Assembly: GCA_026702755.1 (NCBI GenBank)
Contig: JAPPBX010000013.1
Coordinates: forward strand, 1-50,054
Direction of reading: 5' to 3'
DNA: 50,054 nt
Origin: Candidatus Poribacteria bacterium
GTDB taxonomy: Bacteria > Poribacteria > WGA-4E > WGA-3G
Shown here in pieces: positions 38,167 through 50,054 of the stretch (its first letter is position 1; each line of letters starts with the position of its first letter). Position numbers and translations under genes: made by a program. Under the pieces are notes generated by a model. That model saw only the letters and a list, made by a program, of their open reading frames with translations, searched no databases and was not told the origin of the DNA.

Positions 38167-40056
38167 CTACAAATTAATCGTTATATACGTCTCCACTCGG
38201 AACAGAATCGCCACTGTGCCCCAGAAGGTCGTTACGACGAATTCACCCAACACCAAACCGAGGAAGAAAGGTGCTGCCCTCCGAAAACCACCGATCCCGC
38301 CATGCTTCGTAATAATCCATTTCAGGATGAAACTCACAAGGAGCGAAAACCAGAAGAAATTCATCGTGAAGGTGCTGGTAACGGCATAACCCGCTGGATG
38401 GAACGGCATCCACATCCACCGTCCGCGTAGGAACGCCAAGAGCACAGCGACAACTGTCCCAACACTGACCGCACTCAGCACTGCGGTATCGGGACCCGCC
38501 GGTTGCACGAGCCGTCTACCGAGTCGACTGAAGGTCTCCCTGCCTGCCCACGCTGTATAAACACCGTCCTGATAAGAGACGTGCAGATATGCCCAAATCG
38601 TCGCGACAATACTCACACCGATAGCAACAATCACCGCCCTTGCGAAGGTCTTGTTTTCGATGCTGGCACGCTCGGCTATTTTCAATCCCTCAAGATGGTG
38701 TGGCATCAACAGGCAATCGTACGCACGATTGAAAAAATAGAGATACGCCAACCCTGTCAGATTGCTCGCACCGAGCTGTTTCGCCCCAAAAACCGAATAC
38801 ATCATCCTGTCAGGACCGGCGTAATGCTGGTCGTGAACGGGTGAACCGAGTTCGGCACGCATTCGCGTAATCCCCGTCGCCAACCCGAAGAAAAGTCCAA
38901 AGAAGGTCGCGATCACCCACAACGACATCCCGAGCTTGTAGCAGAACCCGACAAGGAACACCACACTCAACACCATCCATACCACGGCTGCACGGTAAGA
39001 AATCGGTTCGTCCGTGTCTGTGAATGAAGATTGCATACCAAACAACCGACGAAGCACTTGTGTCAAGTATCGGCGCGCACTCCACACCGCAATGATACCG
39101 ATACCGATATAGGCACCGAAGGATTGCTCCGCCGCATACGGGAAGGGTGCCGACAAACCAACCGCACTGCCTAATACACGGAGTGCTTGCCAATACAGAT
39201 AAAAGAACCAACAGGAAAACGACAACTCCAACGGCATGAAAAACGCCAAGCCAACGGCAAATGGATAAATGCCAATCGGGAACCACGTGATTGCGTTCCA
39301 CGGACGGACGGTAAAGAAATCGGCGATGTCATAAGCGCGGATACCGCTCAGTCGCGGCACCTGTGGGAACAGGTAATTAACTCCGTTGAGGAGGTCAATG
39401 CCAGCGGCAACTGCAAATCCGATCCACATCGCTTTGCTACGGAAAAACCCGCTCCTCGGATTCGCCATCGCCAACGGCAATTGGATCAACGGATAACTCA
39501 ACTTCTCATTCTCGGTCCACTGCCTTCGGAAAATGAAGTTGATACTGAGCATCACCGAAAACAGCGCGGCGAGAAAGAGTCCCCACCACAACAACGGGAT
39601 GCTCCATGCCACCAAGTGTGGATAAAACGTGGAACCACCGTCGAAAAAATTAGCAAGCCCGCGCTTATCGGTCACCGATGTCCATGACGGGATATAGTGC
39701 CAGAACAAGGATTGCCAATCGTTCTCCGGTGTCGCGTAGGCGAAAGCGTAACTAATAATCGGAAGGAGAATCTGTACGCACATGTGCCCACCGATAGCCG
39801 TCGAGAGGCACAGCATCACATAAATTGTTAGGAGTTCAGCGGTGGAAAGAGATAGTTGCGGCGAGACTTTTTTCGTGAAGCGGTTTACGATTGTCAGTGC
39901 GAAGAGCAGCGTGATCGTGTTATAGAGCAGGGAGATCATCGACATGTGCGCGATGTCCCAGCGCAGTCCCATCATCTGCCACATCGCATTCATCGGAATC
40001 AGCAATAGCCCGATGCAAACCGCTTTCAAACTGAGAGGAGAGCGTTGATGTTTCAC
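38167..40056 (-). CDS. Polytopic membrane protein, DUF6785/DUF6784 type (paralogue)
   Basis: A 629-residue protein with about a dozen or more hydrophobic segments. It shares landmarks with the protein at 7359: LKAVCIGLLLIPMNAMW, RRQWTENEKLSYPLIQLP, RMRAELGSPVHDQ, LMPHHLEGLKIAER and RRAAPFFLGLVLGEF. The two are clear but distant paralogues. A transporter or channel role is possible, but no substrate evidence is present. It lies convergent to the duplicated oxidoreductases. Confidence 0.75.
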   Translation of the reverse strand: MKHQRSPLSLKAVCIGLLLIPMNAMWQMMGLRWDIAHMSMISLLYNTITLLFALTIVNRFTKKVSPQLSLSTAELLTIYVMLCLSTAIGGHMCVQILLPIISYAFAYATPENDWQSLFWHYIPSWTSVTDKRGLANFFDGGSTFYPHLVAWSIPLLWWGLFLAALFSVMLSINFIFRRQWTENEKLSYPLIQLPLAMANPRSGFFRSKAMWIGFAVAAGIDLLNGVNYLFPQVPRLSGIRAYDIADFFTVRPWNAITWFPIGIYPFAVGLAFFMPLELSFSCWFFYLYWQALRVLGSAVGLSAPFPYAAEQSFGAYIGIGIIAVWSARRYLTQVLRRLFGMQSSFTDTDEPISYRAAVVWMVLSVVFLVGFCYKLGMSLWVIATFFGLFFGLATGITRMRAELGSPVHDQHYAGPDRMMYSVFGAKQLGASNLTGLAYLYFFNRAYDCLLMPHHLEGLKIAERASIENKTFARAVIVAIGVSIVATIWAYLHVSYQDGVYTAWAGRETFSRLGRRLVQPAGPDTAVLSAVSVGTVVAVLLAFLRGRWMWMPFHPAGYAVTSTFTMNFFWFSLLVSFILKWIITKHGGIGGFRRAAPFFLGLVLGEFVVTTFWGTVAILFRVETYITINL

Positions 40057-40187
40057 GCAGAGTAGTTATCAGTATTCAGTTGCCAGTTATCAGTTAATCG
40101 TCTGAATCTGGATTTTCAAGATTAGAGGATTTACAGGATTACATCCGTCTCACGTTTCAACCTCCAAGGTTTTGTATAAAACCGCTT

Positions 40188-40359
40188 GACCCACCGCTGG
40201 CGAGGATTGTATCCTCGCCTCTTTCGTTTTGACCCACCGCTGGCGAGGATTGTATCCTCGCCTCTTTCGTTTTGACCCACCGCTGGCGAGGATTGTATCC
40301 TCGCCTCTTTCGTTTTGACCCACCGCTGGCGAGGATTGTATCCTCGCCTCTTTCGTTCC
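40188..40359. repeat. Four tandem copies of a 43-bp palindromic unit
   Basis: Units start at 40188, 40231, 40274 and 40317 and are identical except for the last few bases of unit 4. Each holds the palindrome GGCGAGGAT, TGT, ATCCTCGCC. Because 43 is not a multiple of 3, all three minus-strand frames are open and encode repeating peptides, which are unlikely to be real. There are no unique spacers, so it is not a CRISPR array. Confidence 0.9.
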
Positions 40360-40438
40360 GTTTCGGTGTATACAAAGTTTATGCCCAAGTTCCAGTTCGG
40401 TTAGAAAACCGCACCTACCCAGCATCCATTTGGTACGA

Positions 40439-41401
40439 TCAACGCCCGAGTAAACTACTGCTTTTGAGATACCGATAGAGGTCGCTATCCGTTGTCAGGA
40501 TGAGTTTCGTACTCTCACCTACCGTCTTTCGATACGTCTCCAAGGTTTGAATAAAGGCGAAAAACTCTGGATCCTGACCGTGTGCCTCCGCATAGATTTG
40601 GATGGCTTGTGCGTCTGCGTCTCCCTTAATCTGCTCCGCTTCCTTATAGGCTTCAGATTGAATCCGCTCTAACTCTTTCTGTTTCTGCCCCATGATGTCA
40701 GCGGCTTCACCCGCACCCTCCGATTTGTACTTCTCAGAGATACGTTGACGCTCCGAAATCATTTGGTCAAAGACTTTCGTTCGGACCTCGTCCACATAGT
40801 TAATCCGTTTTATCTGAACATCAACGAGTTCAATGCCGAATTGCGGAACGGTCTCTTGTACCTTCTCAAGGATCATGCGTGTAATCCGTTCCCTGCCAAT
40901 CTGAATTTCCTCCAAAGGTTCACCCGTCTGTCCCTCCTCACCTTCAAGGACTTCCAGATCCAAGGTTAAGACCCGATTTGAATCCCGCACGACTTCAATC
41001 AAGAGTTGTGCCGTAACTAAATCCCGCGCAGCGGAATCAATAATGTCATCTAAGCGGGACTGTGCGAATTGTTCCGTGCCGAGTGCTTGATAGAATTTGA
41101 GTGCATCTGTAATACGCCACCGCGCCGTAGTATCCAACCAGATGAATCTCTTGTCCTTTGTCGGAATCTGGTTAGGGGATCCATCCCATTCAAGCACCCG
41201 CTTTTCAAAGCGGTGCACCTGCTGAATAAAGGGTGTTTTTATTTTCAACCCAGCGGTGACGATCGGTTGCCCGACAGGACGACCAAACTCGGTAATGATG
41301 ACTTGTTCACCTTCATAGACGGTATAGAACACACCTGACACAACCAGCAATACCAGAACTATAACGACAATTAAGGGGATGAGAACTATTTTCGACTTCA
41401 T
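40439..41401 (-). CDS. hflC: HflC, band-7/SPFH protein
   Basis: A 320-residue inner-membrane protein. N-terminal anchor (about 5-25, VLIPLIVVIVLVLLVVSGVF), then the SPFH domain (YEGEQVIITEFGRPVG, KDKRFIWLDTTARWRI) and a coiled coil ending QIKGDADAQAIQIYAEAHGQ. HflK and HflC form a complex around the FtsH protease. Start 41401 is chosen on AAGGAA and the usual HflC N-terminus. Confidence 0.9.
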   Translation of the reverse strand: MKSKIVLIPLIVVIVLVLLVVSGVFYTVYEGEQVIITEFGRPVGQPIVTAGLKIKTPFIQQVHRFEKRVLEWDGSPNQIPTKDKRFIWLDTTARWRITDALKFYQALGTEQFAQSRLDDIIDSAARDLVTAQLLIEVVRDSNRVLTLDLEVLEGEEGQTGEPLEEIQIGRERITRMILEKVQETVPQFGIELVDVQIKRINYVDEVRTKVFDQMISERQRISEKYKSEGAGEAADIMGQKQKELERIQSEAYKEAEQIKGDADAQAIQIYAEAHGQDPEFFAFIQTLETYRKTVGESTKLILTTDSDLYRYLKSSSLLGR

Positions 41402-41577
41402 ATTTTTAATTTTCCTTGCGGTTCGATTAGGCGGGTTTGAAGAATAATGTGCTTCTTCGTACATCCGCCCTCCATTACATTACGGGCTACGGGTTTCAAT
41501 GCCCCGTATAAAGAAATAAAGGAAACTTTTGTGAGACGAACACCTCTTCACCGACTTCTAATTTTACCGGACGGTTT

Positions 41578-42546
41578 TTATTCCTTGAGTTGCAAAAGTG
41601 GGATAGGTGCGTTGGCTTTACCGTCAATGACATAAATCTCTTTCACCTGTGGCAACACTTCTCGCATCGCTTCCAGATAGAGTCGGCGACGGGTAACCTC
41701 TTTCGCCTTCTGATATTCCGTGCGAATCGCTTTGAACCGGTCCGCATCGCCCTGCGCTTCGTTCACCCGCTTCAGCGCGTACCCTTGTGCCTCCGAAATT
41801 CGCTGTGCCGCCACGCCTTTGGCTTTTGGAACGGATTGGTTGTAATCGCGCCACGCCTCGTTGATTAACCGCTCTTTCTCTTGCTTCGCCTCGTTAACGG
41901 CGTTAAAAGCGGACTTCACCGCTTCCGGTGGATTCACATCCTGCAAGGTCACGGTCGCCACATCTAATCCGGTTTGGTAGAGATCCAACGATCGCTGAAG
42001 ATGTTCTTCAACTTCTGCCGCGATTTCAATACGACCGACAGTCAACACTTCGGTAACAGTCCGATCGCCTACAACCCGACTCATGACCGATTCTGAAAGG
42101 TCGCGCAAAGCGCGTTGCGGATTCCTCACAGAGAACAGGAACATTTTCGGATCTTTGATTTTATACTGAACCACCCATTCGACATCGGCGATACTCAGGT
42201 CCCCCGACAGTAAGAGGGATTCCTCCGAATAGTCGCGGGTGTCATACTGCGTCCGAACCCCGGCTCGCAGCGTACGGAAACCGAATTCCTCTTTGAAGAC
42301 TTTGCGGACAGGCACGTTAATCGCCCTCTCAATACCGAGAGGCAGCTTGAAGTGGAGTCCGGGTTCGGCTTGTCGGACGGATTTGCCAAACATCAGCACA
42401 ACAGCGATCTCGTCCGCCTCAACCGTATAAAAACTCGTTGCTAAGCACGCTAAGACTATCACACCGAGAATCACAAACAGAATCCGTTTAGGCGTGATGA
42501 GACGCGTGTAGGGTTGCCGTGTAATTAAATCTTGGAGGTCTTGCAT
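41578..42546 (-). CDS. hflK: HflK, band-7/SPFH protein
   Basis: A 322-residue partner of HflC, upstream of it in the usual order (gap about 176 bases). Membrane anchor about 22-44 (ILFVILGVIVLACLATSF), SPFH domain with EIAVVLMFGKSVRQAEPGL, LLSGDLSIADVEWVVQYKI and VTLQDVNPPEAVKSAFNAV, then a long coiled coil. The Gly-rich N-terminus of enterobacterial HflK is missing, as in many other phyla. AAGGAG precedes the ATG. Confidence 0.9.
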   Translation of the reverse strand: MQDLQDLITRQPYTRLITPKRILFVILGVIVLACLATSFYTVEADEIAVVLMFGKSVRQAEPGLHFKLPLGIERAINVPVRKVFKEEFGFRTLRAGVRTQYDTRDYSEESLLLSGDLSIADVEWVVQYKIKDPKMFLFSVRNPQRALRDLSESVMSRVVGDRTVTEVLTVGRIEIAAEVEEHLQRSLDLYQTGLDVATVTLQDVNPPEAVKSAFNAVNEAKQEKERLINEAWRDYNQSVPKAKGVAAQRISEAQGYALKRVNEAQGDADRFKAIRTEYQKAKEVTRRRLYLEAMREVLPQVKEIYVIDGKANAPIPLLQLKE

Positions 42547-42587
42547 AAGATTTTCTCCTTTTTTATTTTTGACATTTATTATTTAAC

Positions 42588-42805
42588 TATAGTTTGGACG
42601 GTTTCTGTCGGCTCGCGCTTTGTTTCCGCCGCCTTTTCCTTTTTCTTTGAGTTCCGTACACATACGCAACCCGCTAAAAAATAAACTCGGATGCCCCCAT
42701 GAACAGCCCCGTAGGGGCGAAATGTCTATAGAAAAGGCGGACCCCCCGCGGCCAAGCCCCGTAGGGGCGAAATTCTATCCCGTAAAAAAATTGTCCAAAG
42801 TCTAG
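42588..42805. repeat. Inverted-repeat element family B, copy 1, with 11-bp target duplication
   Basis: 218 bp with imperfect ends TATAGTTTGGAC and (inverse of right) CTAGACTTTGGAC. It is flanked by the exact direct repeat TATTATTTAAC (42577-42587 and 42806-42816). Interior: boxes at 42707 and 42757 around a 19-base variable segment (42735-42753). It sits just upstream of hflK and may carry or displace its promoter. Confidence 0.7.
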
Positions 42806-42905
42806 TATTATTTAACGAATACACCCTATTTTAATGCTGCAATAAACGCCTATAATCATAACCGATTTGGTAAAAAGGGTCAAGGGAAGATGTCGGGAAT
42901 CGGAG

Positions 42906-45896
42906 TTAGGAAGATCGCGACGCGGAGGCCGCTTCTACAGAAGAGGACGATTGCTCAAGATAGGCTTGATAGAGTTGACGCTTGAGATCCTTATTGATCT
43001 CCGGTTGCGATAATTTCGTGAAGAGATCCAACCTACTATTGACGAAACTCAATAAAATCTCATCAAACACCTGATTAAACTTATATTCTTTGTTCGTCTC
43101 CGTATTATCTCCGGCGATTACCTGTCGCAGTTCCTCGTTTTCGTGCATCTTTTGGTGAATGGTCTCAATGTCAACCTTATCCTCCACCGTGAAATCTGTC
43201 TGATGCGCACTGTTCAGATTCTCAAGGATATTGGAGAGGAAATCCTGCTCAGGTTCCCTAATCGGACGGACATCGCTGCCAATCCCTTCAACCTCACTAT
43301 CCTCGGCTTCAAGGGAGAGTTGTAACTCTTCGTATGTTCTCTGCACACGAAACGAATCCAAGTCCACAGATGCCAAAACATCTCCTAAGTCCGGGTGATC
43401 CCGTTTCGGCAGCTTCTTGTTGAGACTGCGACCAAAAATATACAACTTTTCTAACGCCACATCGGTGAAGGTCATCAACTGTGAAATATACCCATAGAGC
43501 CGAATATAACTCTGCAAAGTAGAACGAAACGCCTCTCTATCATCTGTTTCAAGTGCTGCCCATCGCTCAACAACACCATCAAGGACACCTTGCAGAAGTT
43601 CGTCAGGCTGATAAGGGTCATAAAAGATACGACAGAATTGATCGATGGTACCTTCATCATAGAGGTCAAAACTCTCCAACTGACGCTGTAGGTCATACAA
43701 CCGATTCGGGTCAGTCTCCTCCGCGAGCATCGTGGTCTGATAGTACTCCTGAAAAGCTTCCTGTATCTGCTCCGGTTCATTCACAAAGTCAAGCACTAGC
43801 GTGTCCGTCTTACCAGTGGCGACGCGGTTCAGACGGCTCAAGGTCTGGACACACTGCAGCCCGTCCAACCGTTTATCGACGTACATCGTCTGTAGCAGCG
43901 GTTCATCGAAACCCGTTTGGAACTTGCTCGCGACAATCAGAATCCGATACTCAGGACTCTTGAAACTGTCCGCAATCGAAGTGCTTGGTGGCAACGCATT
44001 CATCCCGTTTTCTGTGTAATCCTGCCCCTTGTCGGTGTCGTGCACCGTGTCGCTGAACGCTACCAGACACCCGTAGGGGAGACCCATTTCTTTCATCTGT
44101 TTATCAAATTCCAACTTGTATTTGACGCAGTGCAGTCGGGACGGCGTAACCAACATCGCCCGCCCCTTCCCTTCGATCGTCTTTGCAGTGTGTTCAGTGA
44201 AGTGTTCCAGCATAATCTTGGTCTTGGTCTCAATGCTATGGGGTTGCAAATCAACGTAATTGGTCAATGTCCGCAACGTCCGCGCTTTCTCGTACTCTCT
44301 ATCCTCCGGCACACTCTTAACCAGTTGGAAGTACCTCTTAAAGGTGGTGTAGTTCTGCAGCACGTCCAGTGTAAAGCCCTCGCTGATACTCTGGCGCATC
44401 GAATAGACATGGAACGGGATAAATTTTCCGTCTTCATCCTTCCGTCCAAAGAGTTCTAAGGTCTTGTTTTTCGGTGTGCCGCTGAAACCGAAATAGGAGA
44501 TATGCTCCTGCATTCTGCGTTGTTCCATCACCTCAAGGATTTTAGCGTCTATATCTGATACTTCTTCGGCATCATCTTCCGGTACGCCCAGATCAATCCC
44601 TTGCGAGAGCGAAAGCCTGAGGTTCCTTGCAGATTCACCACTCTGCGAGGAGTGCGCTTCGTCAATAATCACGGCGAAGGTCTTGCTTCTGAGTTTGCCA
44701 ATTTCCTCGGCAATCACGCTGAACTTCTGAATCGTCGAGATGATAATATCTTTGCCGGATTCGAGGAAACCTCTGAGTTGTGCTGAGGTCTGATCAACGG
44801 CATGCACCACACCGTCGACCTGCTCCACCTGTTTGATTGTGTCCTGCAGCTGCTTGTCAAGCACACGCCGATCCGTCACAACGATGATGGAGTCGAATAT
44901 CCGATTTGTAGTGTCCGAAGTGCTGAACAGATGCGTCAGCAGGTGCGCCAACCACGCGATAGAGTTCGATTTGCCGCTCCCAGTTGTGTGTTGGATGAGG
45001 TAGTTATGCCCAACCCCCTCTGTCACGATAGCCGCCCGCAATTGACGAATCACATCCAGCTGATGGTATCGCGGGAAAACAAGCACACGGTGCCTCTCAT
45101 CTCTCACCATCTTAGTTTTGGTATCGTAGACCTTCTCTGTAGTCTCCTGCTCATGGATAAAGTTGTTGATCAGTTCAATCAGGTTATCGGGCTGCAGGAT
45201 GTCCTCCCAAAGATAGGCGGTCTTGTGTCCTTTTGGATTTACGGGGTTTTCAATGTCCTTGTTGAAGGGAAAAAAACGTGTCTTGCCACCCTGCAAGTGC
45301 GTTGTCATCGAAACCTTCTCGTTGCCCACCGCAAAGTGCACCAGACACCGCTTGAATCGGAACAACGGCTCCCTCGCATCCCGAGCTGTTCGGTACTGTT
45401 TCTCCGCATCTGTGAAAACCTGACCGGTGAGGCTGTTTTTCAGTTCCATTGTCACCAACGGTAACCCATTGAGAAACAAGGTCATATCCAGCGATTTCTC
45501 GTTCTTCTCCGAATACTTTAACTGTCGAATGAGGGAGAATCGGTTCTGCGCGTAGAGTTCTTGATGGTCGGGGTTCATGCCACTTGAGGGCAGGAAGTAG
45601 ATCAGCTTAAAATGACAACCTCTATCCCTAACTCCTTTCCGAAGCACATCCAATACCCCGCGATTTTTAATCTCCCTGCTGACACGATCAAGGAGTTTAT
45701 CTGGTGTATCCGCGTCGTATTGGCGTTCCAGTTTCTGATACTCCATCAGTTGCGTCATCTGAATAAACCGCAGTGTCTCACTGGATATTAGGCAGCGGGA
45801 TTTATTGTAATGGAAAGATTTTAATGACTGGTAGCCCGACCGATTCAGGTGCGCTTCAATGTGGTCCTCAAAATTTTGTTCTGTATACGTCGGCAC
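42906..45896 (-). CDS. hsdR: Type I restriction enzyme, HsdR subunit
   Basis: A 996-residue motor/nuclease subunit. The nuclease core has Asp137 and ELK (151-153), a PD-(D/E)xK site. Walker A TTGSGKS is 304-310 and the DEAH box 412-415. SFYGFSGTP-type motif III (ISYFGFSGTPKN) and SKFQTGFDEPLL, then LSRLNR (motif VI), complete the helicase. The start is GTG with no clear ribosome site. The frame is intact. hsdS lies upstream on the same strand but no hsdM is in the window. Confidence 0.92.
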   Translation of the reverse strand: MPTYTEQNFEDHIEAHLNRSGYQSLKSFHYNKSRCLISSETLRFIQMTQLMEYQKLERQYDADTPDKLLDRVSREIKNRGVLDVLRKGVRDRGCHFKLIYFLPSSGMNPDHQELYAQNRFSLIRQLKYSEKNEKSLDMTLFLNGLPLVTMELKNSLTGQVFTDAEKQYRTARDAREPLFRFKRCLVHFAVGNEKVSMTTHLQGGKTRFFPFNKDIENPVNPKGHKTAYLWEDILQPDNLIELINNFIHEQETTEKVYDTKTKMVRDERHRVLVFPRYHQLDVIRQLRAAIVTEGVGHNYLIQHTTGSGKSNSIAWLAHLLTHLFSTSDTTNRIFDSIIVVTDRRVLDKQLQDTIKQVEQVDGVVHAVDQTSAQLRGFLESGKDIIISTIQKFSVIAEEIGKLRSKTFAVIIDEAHSSQSGESARNLRLSLSQGIDLGVPEDDAEEVSDIDAKILEVMEQRRMQEHISYFGFSGTPKNKTLELFGRKDEDGKFIPFHVYSMRQSISEGFTLDVLQNYTTFKRYFQLVKSVPEDREYEKARTLRTLTNYVDLQPHSIETKTKIMLEHFTEHTAKTIEGKGRAMLVTPSRLHCVKYKLEFDKQMKEMGLPYGCLVAFSDTVHDTDKGQDYTENGMNALPPSTSIADSFKSPEYRILIVASKFQTGFDEPLLQTMYVDKRLDGLQCVQTLSRLNRVATGKTDTLVLDFVNEPEQIQEAFQEYYQTTMLAEETDPNRLYDLQRQLESFDLYDEGTIDQFCRIFYDPYQPDELLQGVLDGVVERWAALETDDREAFRSTLQSYIRLYGYISQLMTFTDVALEKLYIFGRSLNKKLPKRDHPDLGDVLASVDLDSFRVQRTYEELQLSLEAEDSEVEGIGSDVRPIREPEQDFLSNILENLNSAHQTDFTVEDKVDIETIHQKMHENEELRQVIAGDNTETNKEYKFNQVFDEILLSFVNSRLDLFTKLSQPEINKDLKRQLYQAYLEQSSSSVEAASASRSS

Positions 45897-46078
45897 GGTC
45901 TAAACCCCGTTAAGCAGATAAAGGTTGCTGCTGCATCATCGGTATCATATAACTGTAGCATAGGCTGTTAGCCTGTGGCACATATCCCCTATAGCATAGG
46001 GGACCGTTGGTTTCCTGTGCAAAGGGATACGTCGTCGGTGCTACATCATCAGTATCACGTAACTCTGAATCGTCCATT
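45897..46078. repeat. Direct repeat and hairpins before hsdR
   Basis: A 27-base imperfect direct repeat (GCTGCATCATCGGTATCA at 45930, GCTACATCATCAGTATCA at 46040) and a hairpin CCCCTA, TAGCA, TAGGGG (45989-46006 region). Confidence 0.45.
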
Positions 46079-46330
46079 TCAGGGAGAGTTTAAAGAGAAA
46101 TGCGTATCTATTTCATCTAAACTTTGCGCGGTCATCGCTTGCTCTAAAAGCGTATCAAGGAGCGATAGGTTGTGGATATTGCTGATTTCACGTGAAAGCA
46201 CTTCAGGCACGCTCTGAAATCGGAGCTGCAGGAGTTTGAGTACCGCGTCCCGTTTACCTTCCACTTTACCTTGTTCTATGCCTTCTGCTTTGCCTTGTTC
46301 TATGAGAAACTCAGCCGTTGTTTGTGCCAT
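46079..46330 (-). CDS. C-terminal fragment of an Rpn/PD-(D/E)xK transposase-like protein
   Basis: An 83-residue frame reading MAQTTAEFLIEQGKAEGIEQ, GKVEGKRDAVLKLLQLRF and SREISNIHNLSLLDTLLEQA. This resembles the tail of Rpn-family recombination-promoting nucleases; the nuclease domain is absent. AAGGAG lies 9 bases before the ATG at 46330, so it may be expressed as a small protein rather than being dead. It sits between hsdS and hsdR. Confidence 0.6.
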   Translation of the reverse strand: MAQTTAEFLIEQGKAEGIEQGKVEGKRDAVLKLLQLRFQSVPEVLSREISNIHNLSLLDTLLEQAMTAQSLDEIDTHFSLNSP

Positions 46331-46407
46331 CGTTTCTAACTCCTTATCGTCTTGAAAAGTATAGCATAGAAACACCGAAAAATCAACGCTATATGTAGCG
46401 CACGCCA

Positions 46408-46748
46408 GGACTATTTAGTTTTCGGTTTTTTCGTCCAATTTTAGGTCCTCCAGGCCCGGTAGGTGCGGTTTGGAACCGCACCGGGACTAAAAAGGAAAAA
46501 TCAGACATCTATGAAATCCAATAATTTATCTAAAACTGAATGCCCTGTATCGCACGCCAGGGTCATTTAGTTCTTAAGAGCAGCGAAGAGGCAAAAACCA
46601 AGCGGTGGCTGCGCTCCATCCCCCTTCGCGCTTTAGTCCCGTAGGGACGCTATCTATGTAGAAAAATGACACCCACCAGACCTAAGCCCCGTAGGGGCGG
46701 CATTGAAACCTCCTCGGAAGTTCCAGTCCCTTTAAAACTAAATAATCC
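46408..46748. repeat. 341-bp nested inverted-repeat element
   Basis: Ends GGACTATTTAGTTTT (46408-46422) and AAAACTAAATAATCC (46734-46748) are inverted with one mismatch. Just outside lie direct CTATAT...CACGCCA repeats. Inside: a hairpin GGTGCGGTTTGGAACCGCACC in pieces near 46463 (family C end), two boxes (46638, 46687) around a 19-base variable segment (46665-46683). No gene. Confidence 0.6.
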
Positions 46749-46786
46749 TATATCACACGCCAACTCAGAAAATAAAAAGATAGGAT

Positions 46787-48079
46787 CTACACATCATTTC
46801 GGACATCTATTTTGCCGGTCACTGCTTCGGAAATGAGGGATTGACGGTATTCCTTGAGGAGTTCAATCTTTCGCTGCTCTGCGGATACCAGTTCGTCAAT
46901 CTGTCCGGTTTTGCGGTCAAGGAATTTGACGATTTGTTTCTGTTCTTGGCGCAGAGGAATAGGAAGCTGAAAATTTGAATACTTTTCGCCATTGACATTC
47001 TGGATTGTTGAGATGATTATCTGTTGTTCAAGCCAATTTCTATAAAAATGTGATAGTGTTACATAGTAGATAAATTTCGATGTCCAGTAATCATTAAAGT
47101 TAAATCTAACGAGATAGCCCGCACTGGTATATTTTCCTGTTTGAAGGTGCAAATAAGATTTTCCTACTGTTGCGCCACTACGAGAGAAAAGCAAATCATA
47201 ACTATTAAGCATCTGTTCTTGAGGGACACAATCTTCAGGTAGATAAACTCCTTTCTGTGCGAGACTTCCTCCTTCACCAATATCAGTAATTCTGATTAAT
47301 CTGATCCCCTCTGTGGTATATCTATCTGCCTCAATATTAAGACCATAAGTCACCGGAATTTTGGAAATATACTTCAATCTTGTAAGAGTCCAATGCTTCG
47401 GTATCTCCCCAATCCACTCCACGCCCGACGGTTTCATCTCCACATTCGGGTCAAGCCCCTTCGTCACTGCCTGATTTATCAGTACGGTGCGTTGTTCCTG
47501 CAGCAGTTCTATCCGTCGTTCTTTGATGCGGATGAGCTCGTCAATCTGTCCCGTCTTCCGGTCGAGAAAGTTAGCGATTTGGGTTTGTTCTGACAAAGAC
47601 GGATAGAGAACAACAATATCCTTGAAATCCTCAAATCGTAGTTCCCATTGGCCTATTCTCACCCCATAGGATAATCTGTTAAACTCCTGAATGTAAGGCT
47701 GAGACCTAAGCAAATAATGGAAATATTTCCCATGAAAATGTCTCTTAGGCTTACAGACAGTATAAGCCGGACTGACAATTCCTCTATATTCCGAAACTCC
47801 TAAAGAACCTTGCCAACACTTCATTTTGTTAAACACAAAATCCCCGGGCTCAACGAGTTTATAGTTTGATGTGTCCTCTGATACTCTGTTGTAATTATCA
47901 TCTCTGCTGTCTCGCTTAATGACTCCATAATCTCTGTAAACAGATAAATTGATTTCCCCAGATGTATTTTTTATATGTTTAAGTTCAAACAGATGAGTAC
48001 ATCTTATCATATTCCAACCCTTCGGTACCTCTTCAATCCACTCCACACCACTCTCTTTATATTCAGGGTAACGATTCAT
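46787..48079 (-). CDS. hsdS: Type I restriction specificity subunit HsdS
   Basis: A 430-residue DNA-recognition subunit with two target-recognition domains. Each half opens with the same text (GVEWIEEVPKGW at 11-22, GVEWIGEIPKHW in the second half) and ends in a long helix (FLDRKTGQIDELIRIKERR, FLDRKTGQIDELVSAEQRK) that sets the spacing between half-sites. The frame is intact. AAAGG lies 10 bases before the ATG. Its partner HsdM would be expected upstream or downstream but is absent. Confidence 0.92.
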   Translation of the reverse strand: MNRYPEYKESGVEWIEEVPKGWNMIRCTHLFELKHIKNTSGEINLSVYRDYGVIKRDSRDDNYNRVSEDTSNYKLVEPGDFVFNKMKCWQGSLGVSEYRGIVSPAYTVCKPKRHFHGKYFHYLLRSQPYIQEFNRLSYGVRIGQWELRFEDFKDIVVLYPSLSEQTQIANFLDRKTGQIDELIRIKERRIELLQEQRTVLINQAVTKGLDPNVEMKPSGVEWIGEIPKHWTLTRLKYISKIPVTYGLNIEADRYTTEGIRLIRITDIGEGGSLAQKGVYLPEDCVPQEQMLNSYDLLFSRSGATVGKSYLHLQTGKYTSAGYLVRFNFNDYWTSKFIYYVTLSHFYRNWLEQQIIISTIQNVNGEKYSNFQLPIPLRQEQKQIVKFLDRKTGQIDELVSAEQRKIELLKEYRQSLISEAVTGKIDVRNDV

Positions 48080-48139
48080 AATTCCAATACCTTTTTGTCT
48101 GAATCGCGGATTTCGCGGATTACACGGATGACGCGGATT

Positions 48140-48259
48140 TTATAATAGAATCCGAAAATATGTTTACAGTTCGTCACGGAACAAACCCTCACTACTGCTG
48201 GCGAGGATTGTATCCTCGCCTTTGTGTTGGTGTATAAATAATTACGAGATTTACTATAA
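48140..48259. repeat. Short inverted-repeat element, family A copy 3
   Basis: 120 bp, ends TTATAATAGAATCC and (inverse) TTATAGTAAATCTC. Interior module CTGCTGGCGAGGAT, TGT, ATCCTCGCC is the same as in the 43-bp tandem array. Confidence 0.65.
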
Positions 48260-48404
48260 GATGTCCTCGTGTCAAATCATTGGCTCTAGCGGGGTTGAAA
48301 CCCCTCCTAATCCTCAAGGAGGAAGAGGTGTCCAACGACAAGTTTTGGCTTTTTCATTTCGGGCCCCTGTCGTAAGGATTATGTTAATGAAGTCTTCATT
48401 AGAC

Positions 48405-48645
48405 TTTACTAAAGTTTGGACAATTTTTAAATACTAAACAGGTTTCCGCCCCTACGGGGCTTAGCTGCGCGGGGGACAACGTTTCTATTCTCACTGCGAA
48501 GCAATGTCGCCCCGCTCGGGCTGCGCTTCCTTCTGCTTAGAATCTTTTTCCGTCAGTTATCGGTGTGTGCAAAACTCATAGGAAAATAGAGAACGCTTTG
48601 AAAACACAACACGCACGCGACACGGATTGTCCAAACTTTAGTAAA
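48405..48645. repeat. Inverted-repeat element family B, copy 2
   Basis: 241 bp with perfect 20-bp terminal inverted repeats: TTTACTAAAGTTTGGACAAT at 48405-48424 and its complement at 48626-48645. The cassette inside is on the minus strand, with its 19-base variable segment at 48463-48481. Confidence 0.75.
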
Positions 48646-48904
48646 TTATAAGACTACATCTAACTAATATTATACAATATTTTTAGGGAAAAGCAAGAAA
48701 ATTCTGTGCTGTGTGCGATTTTTAGGAGGTCTCCGTTCCACCAAAGGGAAACACCCAAGCAAAAACACCTACAGGAACTCCAAAGCACTTTGTAGCCTCC
48801 GCTGTTAGGTTGTGCATAGGTCTTTTGCCCCATAATCTCATCTTCCCTCGCCTCTGCTATGAAATATGTATCCGAGCGGTCTTGGGAAAAGTCGCGTCAA
48901 TCGC

Positions 48905-49008
48905 AAAGTGTTAGATAAAGTCATTATTATTTTGTTATTTATGTCAAAAAATATGACCTAATACAACATTTGAATAAACCTTTATAATAATTGACTTTAT
49001 CGCACTTT
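48905..49008. repeat. AT-rich inverted repeat
   Basis: AAAGTG...GATAAAGTCA (48905-48923) and TGACTTTATC...CACTTT (48992-49008) are inverted. About 100 bp in all, very AT-rich inside. Confidence 0.5.
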
Positions 49009-49112
49009 TAATTTGATTAATACCGAGATCTGTGATACCATATACATTAACAAATGTGAAAATATGAAACTTCTGACACGACGATTCCCTAAAACTTCAC
49101 AAAGCCGACAAC

Positions 49113-49274
49113 CATGCCAAACGGACACATTGAAGTCAACATCAACAAAGCGATTTCCACCTCGACTGGAGCAGGTATCTCCGAAGACCCAGCTCCGCGT
49201 CGCACCGTCGCGTCATCTGTAGAGACTACTAACAAGCAGTTAGGCTGCCCCCCCCCCCCCACTTTACAAATATA
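49113..49274 (+). CDS. Doubtful small frame spanning the C tract
   Basis: A 53-codon frame (MPNGHIEVNINKAISTSTGA...) that runs through the 13-C tract as four Pro codons and stops soon after. No ribosome site. Residue mix is protein-like before the tract. A change in C number would alter its end. Confidence 0.15.
49248..49260. repeat. Homopolymer tract of 13 C
   Basis: Uninterrupted C run 180 bases before the fibronectin-III gene. Confidence 0.8.
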
Positions 49275-49330
49275 AAGTATTATTCTTCAGAATACGGTAT
49301 CAGCAGTTATCGTTGTTCGCGATGCTTCGC

Positions 49331-49380
49331 GCCCGCGCCGCCTCCGTCTCGCACGGAGTCTCTCGTCGCGGGCTATTTTT
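49331..49380 (+). terminator. GC-rich hairpin with T-run upstream of the FN3 gene
   Basis: Outer stem GCCCGCG (49331-49337) with CGCGGGC (49367-49373), inner stem CTCCG with CGGAG, then TATTTTT. It lies 60 bases before the ATG, so it could end an upstream transcript or act as an attenuator. Confidence 0.45.
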
Positions 49381-49440
49381 CGTGTCGCATGACACACCTA
49401 AACGCCAATTTGATTGCAAAAACGACAAGGAGATTTAAAA

Positions 49441-50054
49441 ATGAAAAGAGTCATACCTTTACTCATACTCATGAGCCTATTGATATTGATCACTGAAACT
49501 GTCGCTCAAGATACCCCAGGACCCCCTACAAATTTTACGGTAACACAAGGGGACCGCCAACTTACGCTGGAGTGGGCACATCCAAGCAATATAAACATTG
49601 CTAATATTAGCCGCTATCGACTTAGATCGAGAGCGGCCGGGGCCTCCGCGCCGACGACTACTACTTTATGGCCGGGAGCGACTCTCAATCCTGAGGCTTT
49701 TACAGAAAATCCGTCTTACAAATTTATTCACCTTATCAACGGAATAGAATCTACTTTTACGATAGCAGCTGTAAATGACAATGGCCAGGAAGGCACAATA
49801 TCCGCAGCCAAAACAGGGACACCTATGATGCCAGCACCTGAAGATTTCACCGCAACTTTAGATGCCCCAACTACAGATGATAGGACAGTTACGCTGAGTT
49901 GGACAGGCATACCTCAATTACCCTTTCACGCCACCAATCGTGACGTCACCGATTACGAATACAGTCAAAATGGTGGAGCTTGGACATCTATAGGTAGTAC
50001 CAGCACGAGCCATCTTGTAACTGGATTGGAAAATGGAAGGTCATATACTTTTAG
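49441..50054 (+). CDS. Secreted fibronectin type III protein (partial, runs off the window)
   Basis: At least 204 codons with no stop before the edge. Signal peptide about 1-22 (VIPLLILMSLLILITETVA, then QD). Two FN3-like beta domains begin at PGPPTNFTVTQGDRQLTLEW and at PAPEDFTATLDAPTTDDRTV, each with the LxWxxP/W core. FN3 modules in bacteria usually bind carbohydrates or other surface targets or act as spacers. AAGGAG lies 8 bases before the ATG. The C-terminus, and any enzyme domain, is outside the window. Confidence 0.85.
   Translation, partial: MKRVIPLLILMSLLILITETVAQDTPGPPTNFTVTQGDRQLTLEWAHPSNINIANISRYRLRSRAAGASAPTTTTLWPGATLNPEAFTENPSYKFIHLINGIESTFTIAAVNDNGQEGTISAAKTGTPMMPAPEDFTATLDAPTTDDRTVTLSWTGIPQLPFHATNRDVTDYEYSQNGGAWTSIGSTSTSHLVTGLENGRSYTF

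Follow-up and report, generated by a model that had tools for sequence, protein, structure and literature searches.

The window analysed here is the whole of contig C13 (50,054 bp) of a metagenome-assembled genome (MAG) from Candidatus Poribacteria, a sponge symbiont. The MAG (G000) is 5.84 Mb in 126 contigs, and is 96% complete and 4% contaminated. Toward the end of the contig are two genes of a type I restriction system, hsdR and hsdS, with a small gene related to the C-terminal part of Rpn proteins between them. The gene for the methyltransferase subunit, hsdM, is not visible on the contig. Most probably this is an ordinary type I locus that the end of the contig has cut, with a solo antitoxin-like rpnS gene inside. 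It was compared with 37 other genomes of the genus (G-numbered), and the coordinates of its features are collected in Table 1.

An earlier sequence-only reading described both hsdR and hsdS as intact. This holds, as both frames are open throughout and the domains and motifs are in place. A profile search of HsdR identifies HSDR_N, SWI2_SNF2/ResIII and T1R_D3-like domains, while the match to TIGR00348 (224 bits) is under the cut-off of 284 bits. The protein has the PD-(D/E)XK nuclease and SF2 helicase motifs of a type I restriction subunit, and can be aligned to EcoR124 HsdR across the D...ELK motif (D137, E151-L-K153). HsdS has two target recognition domains, and its full length is covered by PADLOC type I specificity profiles. 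Two conserved regions within hsdS show up as repeats. The same reading had noted nested repeats between hsdS and hsdR; those found in this analysis are these hsdS regions, together with a 24-nt direct repeat inside the Rpn frame. Loci found through HsdR belong mostly to the same phylum; 27 of the 30 are named Candidatus Poribacteria and the other three come from Neomarinimicrobiota, Muribaculaceae and Thiodubiliella.

One more intact hsdS of this family is present in the MAG (C117:24501-25787; L042:6502-7791). It is 41% identical to the window HsdS overall, and its central and C-terminal conserved regions are near-identical. Neither hsdM nor hsdR is found in its vicinity, and it is possible that this gene provides a second specificity for the same HsdM. 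Another contig, C41 (G000:C41:1-3769, L044), carries the 3' end of an hsdS, a full-length rpn (389 amino acids) and the first 769 amino acids of an hsdR with 83% identity to the window hsdR. This was at first read as a second copy of the locus; however, its identity to the G010/G009 lineage is 91-95%, which makes contamination just as likely.

Contig end and the missing hsdM

The absence of hsdM from the stretch, as first claimed, survived a tblastn search of the window with the cognate HsdM of poribacterial relatives (581 amino acids, N6_Mtase and HsdM_N domains). No hsdM was found, and no in-frame remains were detected in 48080-49440 even at E<=10. The suggestion that the gene lies elsewhere in the genome fared less simply. 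The cognate hsdM is in none of the 126 contigs, and none of the 14 PF02384 matches in the assembly is the cognate HsdM. The best HsdM matches, on C81 and C117, share 29% and 27% identity with the cognate protein, and each lies within its own M-S-R cluster.

The typical gene order in relatives is NTase-bioD-hsdM-[0-6.6 kb cargo]-hsdS-[rpn]-hsdR-hflC-hflK. The gap between hsdM and hsdS ranges from -4 to ~6,560 bp in the 17 genomes with both ends seen, and the two genes overlap by 4 nt in three genomes. The window ends 1,975 bp upstream of hsdS. The gap is longer than this in 12 of the 17 genomes measured (for G036 it was set by hand to ~5.6 kb, as the automatic value rested on an hsdS fragment); therefore, a missing hsdM in the last 2 kb of the contig says little. 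By our reading of the match table, the cognate HsdM is intact in 24 of the 37 relatives, broken or fragmentary in five (G002, G003, G004, G009, G010) and not found in eight (G005, G013, G014, G017, G018, G022, G023, G025). Three of these eight (G013, G014, G023) are also without the cognate hsdR. Eleven relatives have bioD and hsdR on one contig (G003, G019, G021, G027, G029, G031-G034, G036, G037). The hsdM gene is intact at 10 of these sites and broken in G003, and G036 keeps only remains of hsdR. The cognate hsdM is present in all five genomes that are assembled into three or fewer contigs (G033-G037).

G000 also lacks bioD, which usually lies next to hsdM. The bioD gene is present in 35 of the 37 relatives, and the two exceptions are genomes of 78% and 84% completeness. 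The nucleotidyltransferase (NTase) gene beyond bioD is on contig C63, where it is kept only from residue 123 and runs toward the contig end. C63 does not simply end inside this gene; the homology breaks off 81 bp short of the contig end, and the terminal 57 bp correspond to one end of an insertion sequence (IS) that is whole in G034. The G034 copy has 23-nt inverted repeats and a DDE transposase, and lies between hsdM and bioD. IS elements are a usual cause of assembly breaks. C63 thus ends in an IS, and all genes expected between C63 and C13 are missing together. Because bioD and the first part of the NTase gene are missing as well, the cognate hsdM probably lies in the unassembled stretch past the contig end and is present in the cell. 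The second intact hsdS in the MAG was also counted in favor of this reading.

The hflC-hflK pair downstream of the window hsdR marks the same bioD site as in relatives. The window would then hold the hsdS-hsdR end of a type I locus that is normal for Poribacteria, bioD-hsdM-cargo-hsdS-rpn-hsdR-hflC-hflK, with hsdM inside a missing piece of at least ~3 kb between C63, which ends in an IS inside the NTase gene, and C13. The HsdM2-HsdS complex would be expected to methylate a single bipartite site, and HsdR2-HsdM2-HsdS to cut DNA without that mark. A join of C13 to C96 through a MATE gene, the neighbour of hsdM in G035 and G018, was rejected. The MATE gene is at 54,910-56,211 of the 163-kb C96, not at a contig end, and the hflC-hflK flank indicates the bioD site.

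Several points weigh against an hsdM hidden in the gap. The gene itself is never seen in the MAG, though the MAG is 96% complete, and the join of C63 and C13 is deduced from synteny. The IS at the break could also reflect an IS-mediated deletion. G018, which has the closest HsdS (91%), has no hsdM in the 16.6 kb upstream of hsdS; the interval holds SIR2 and STAND genes and only a doubtful hsdM trace (E 0.027) beside the MATE gene. The hsdR of G018 runs off its contig at residue 694. Thus S, perhaps with R, occurs without M in the genus, apparently at a different site. G003 keeps hsdR with a broken hsdM, so loss happens.

The main alternative is that hsdM is truly lost, for example by an IS-mediated deletion which also removed bioD and the beginning of the NTase gene. 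In that case hsdR and hsdS would be recent leftovers, inactive because type I cutting needs HsdM. The failure to find the cognate hsdM or bioD in any of the 126 contigs, the IS end of C63, and the real losses or breakages of hsdM in G018, G003, G002, G009 and G010 are all consistent with such a loss. It is nevertheless unlikely, since the suspected hole coincides exactly with both contig ends, nearly every relative has bioD, 10 of the 11 relatives with a contiguous site keep an intact hsdM, and hsdR and hsdS are intact. The ratio of nonsynonymous to synonymous substitution rates (dN/dS) of hsdR is 0.13-0.19 in six comparisons with close relatives, including the truncated C41 copy, and that of hsdS is 0.175 against G018 and 0.51 against the more distant G031. 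These low values argue against a long decay of the genes but not against a recent loss, because dN/dS is an average over the whole branch and is blind to a recent loss of hsdM. The choice posed by the sequence-only reading, an hsdM elsewhere or a remnant locus, was a fair one. The evidence favors an hsdM just outside the window, in the unassembled gap, over a remnant, and the low dN/dS gives no sign of decay. To conclude from the missing hsdM that the enzyme is M-less or the locus a remnant is probably wrong.

It is very improbable that this HsdS and HsdR borrow an HsdM encoded at a different locus of the genome. Two further HsdMs are available on C81 and C117, but they are distant from the cognate protein and each belongs to a cluster of its own. 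A genuine S-R system that does without a methylase and protects itself in some new way is the least credible explanation; its sole support is the lack of hsdM on the contig, while the same family has hsdM in most relatives and restriction requires a complex with two copies each of HsdR and HsdM and a single HsdS (PMC11411939). A literature search combining hsdR, hsdS and "lacking hsdM" returned no paper. A MAG contig break at an IS can mimic a type I system without a methylase, and a near-universal neighbour gene such as bioD serves as a test for such a false absence.

The Rpn gene between hsdS and hsdR

The frame between hsdS and hsdR corresponds to residues 263-389 of the full-length Rpn on C41 (389 amino acids, PF04754). 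It matches the C-terminal part of TIGR01784 with 21.5 bits, which is under the cut-off of 52.1. The RpnL nuclease domain (YhgA-like, PF04754) is absent from the window, and is present in the full-length homologue on C41. Since the window keeps only residues ~263-389, the gene was filed as a solo rpnS and not as a toxin-antitoxin pair. Zhong et al. (2023, PMC10327210) showed that, in E. coli, the Rpn C-terminus is made as a product of separate translation (RpnS) that blocks the full-length nuclease. In the full-length rpn genes of relatives there is a conserved promoter (TTGATT...TATACT) and an in-frame AAGGAG-N9-ATG at the codons KELETM. The window has the ribosome-binding site and ATG at the same codon as its relatives, and the AAGGAG is kept in 10 of 13 stand-alone copies, with slight differences in G031, G018 and G019. 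All 20 aligned frames begin with MAQTTA, and short EG-type repeat units vary after about residue 13. Because the window piece fits the description of RpnS by Zhong et al., it is read as an rpnS without its toxin and not as debris.

In the window the rpn promoter is fused directly to the internal start and the toxin part is deleted. The same promoter-start junction is present in G009, G029 and G035, and two other junctions are present in G031 and G030. Overall, deletion of the toxin part occurs in six genomes, with three different junctions. In G034, G026, G017, G021, G018, G025 and the old G019 site, a full rpn precedes a stand-alone copy that starts at the same ATG. Among 31 loci, six have a full rpn and a tail, seven a full rpn only, six a tail only and nine no rpn; one has a truncated longer form (G016) and two are cut by the contig start (G005, G011). 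These classes are our own, with five automatic labels reassigned by hand (G030, G036, G016, G005, G011). The rpn tail of G030 lies among hsdS fragments and not directly before hsdR. The sequence-only reading took an Rpn-like fragment here to indicate rearrangement. The piece is real and does record a rearrangement, but a specific one, a deletion of the Rpn toxin part, which is found again in relatives and has no tie to the loss of hsdM.

The small gene would then be a stand-alone rpnS left after deletion of the nuclease part, predicted to yield only the small Rpn antitoxin. By analogy with the published E. coli work, its product may act as an antitoxin. Some results weigh against this role. 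The match of the protein to DUF4351 is weak (19.5 bits, cut-off 25). The predicted model is helical with a predicted local distance difference test score (pLDDT) of 74 and has no match in the PDB at E<=0.001. A profile of rpnS finds nothing below E 0.2 among PDB sequences. Neither the model nor the profile thus links the gene structurally to RpnAS. The sole close full-length Rpn in the MAG, on C41, has many more repeats, and the pairing of RpnS in E. coli is repeat-specific (Zhong et al. 2023, PMC10327210).

It is possible, although tentative, that in Poribacteria the rpn toxin-antitoxin gene at the S-R junction has been trimmed repeatedly by independent deletions that free an antitoxin with its promoter and internal start, that selection keeps the antitoxin, and that the window is one such case. 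If true, the antitoxin may be kept for protection against other Rpn nucleases or against killing upon loss of the toxin. The median dN/dS of solo rpnS is 0.21 (15 pairs), which includes time before the deletion and is therefore no proof of selection on solo rpnS. The three kinds of deletion drop the Rpn nuclease yet keep the promoter, the internal ribosome-binding site and the antitoxin frame. They give natural support, from an uncultured phylum, to the published rule that Rpn proteins have a C-terminus that is also made as a gene product of its own.

Neighbouring features

Table 1. Features of the window and of related loci (window positions unless a locus is named).
Feature	Position	Strand	Remarks
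hflK-like SPFH gene	40439..41464	-	conserved downstream neighbour
hflC-like SPFH gene	41578..42546	-	conserved neighbour downstream of hsdR
hsdR	42906..45896	-	type I restriction subunit, 996 amino acids, without internal stop
rpnS-like stand-alone gene	46079..46330	-	83 codons, starts MAQTT; C-terminal Rpn part
24-nt direct repeat inside rpnS	46257..46304	-	variable repeat region; from repeat analysis and frame alignment
rpnS ribosome-binding site AAGGAG	46340..46345	-	same as internal site of full-length rpn genes
Sigma-70-like promoter TTGATT-17-TATACT, TG before -10	46358..46386	-	full-length rpn promoter, retained
hsdS	46787..48079	-	430 amino acids, two target recognition domains; 91% identity to G018 hsdS
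Short dispersed repeat	48080..48141	.	directly upstream of hsdS; also upstream of hsdS elsewhere and beside hsdM in some loci
Fibronectin type III gene	49438..50052	+	runs off contig end; at the position of the variable M-S cargo
pAgo + DUF4365 pair	L090:7178-10038, L093:6159-9007, L085:6491-9389		only the G031 pair profiled; others by sequence look

The region also contains several small elements. Upstream of hsdS there is a 26-nt inverted repeat (48399-48424 and 48626-48651, 92% complementary, 201 nt apart), which may be a small non-autonomous mobile element. Upstream of the fibronectin type III gene, 13 consecutive C (49248-49260) possibly form a slippage tract. A tandem array at 40131-40425, upstream of the promoter-distal side of hflK, can be read in several frames, with open reading frames (ORFs) of 72-91 amino acids that have repeated motifs. 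A 28-nt unit of this array also occurs at 48194-48221. An Rfam scan of 40000-50054 gave no match.

The interval between hsdM and hsdS in relatives carries pAgo with a DUF4365 partner, SIR2/STAND genes or AAA pairs. The short pAgo and its partner, a pair which we take to be SPARDA-like, separate hsdM from hsdS in G031 and G035; in G017 they lie upstream of hsdS. G019 has an hsdM remnant adjoining bioD, in which an internal deletion joins residues 1-98 to 509-581 (L098:1130-1636), and a full M-S-R set ~12 kb away (L098:13340-19290). In G036 hsdM is intact, while only two end pieces of hsdR remain, next to a 566-amino-acid ORF (L096:2005-4916).

Comparison with known systems

The locus resembles the EcoR124 type I system. 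The window HsdR is related to EcoR124 HsdR (PDB 2w00), and the HsdM of relatives to the EcoR124 M subunit (PDB 7bst). It shares the HSDR_N nuclease and helicase, the HsdS with two target recognition domains and, in relatives, an HsdM with N6_Mtase and HsdM_N. It differs in that hsdM is not visible on C13, in the M-S cargo of relatives and in the rpn gene between S and R.

The small gene resembles RpnL/RpnS as described by Zhong et al. (PMC10327210). The predicted C-terminal product has its own internal ribosome-binding site and ATG, and repeats vary 8-20 residues past the start in that account, where the E. coli RpnS has variable four-residue repeats. Separate rpnS genes and tandem second copies are also described there. 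In contrast, the window gene has no toxin part, keeps the rpn promoter and is placed between hsdS and hsdR. No paper on a stand-alone rpnS within type I loci was found in the open-licence PMC literature.

Toxin-antitoxin or restriction modules within type I loci are already known. DarTG2 is located between hsdS and hsdR in enteropathogenic E. coli (EPEC), and the S-R junction is proposed to be a hotspot (RptR paper, PMC12255303). TgvAB is inside a type I cluster in Vibrio cholerae (PMC11411939). The window is similar to these in that a gene related to a second defence or toxin-antitoxin module lies within the type I locus; however, here it is a lone antitoxin-like gene, and the pAgo, SIR2 or AAA cargo of relatives sits between M and S.

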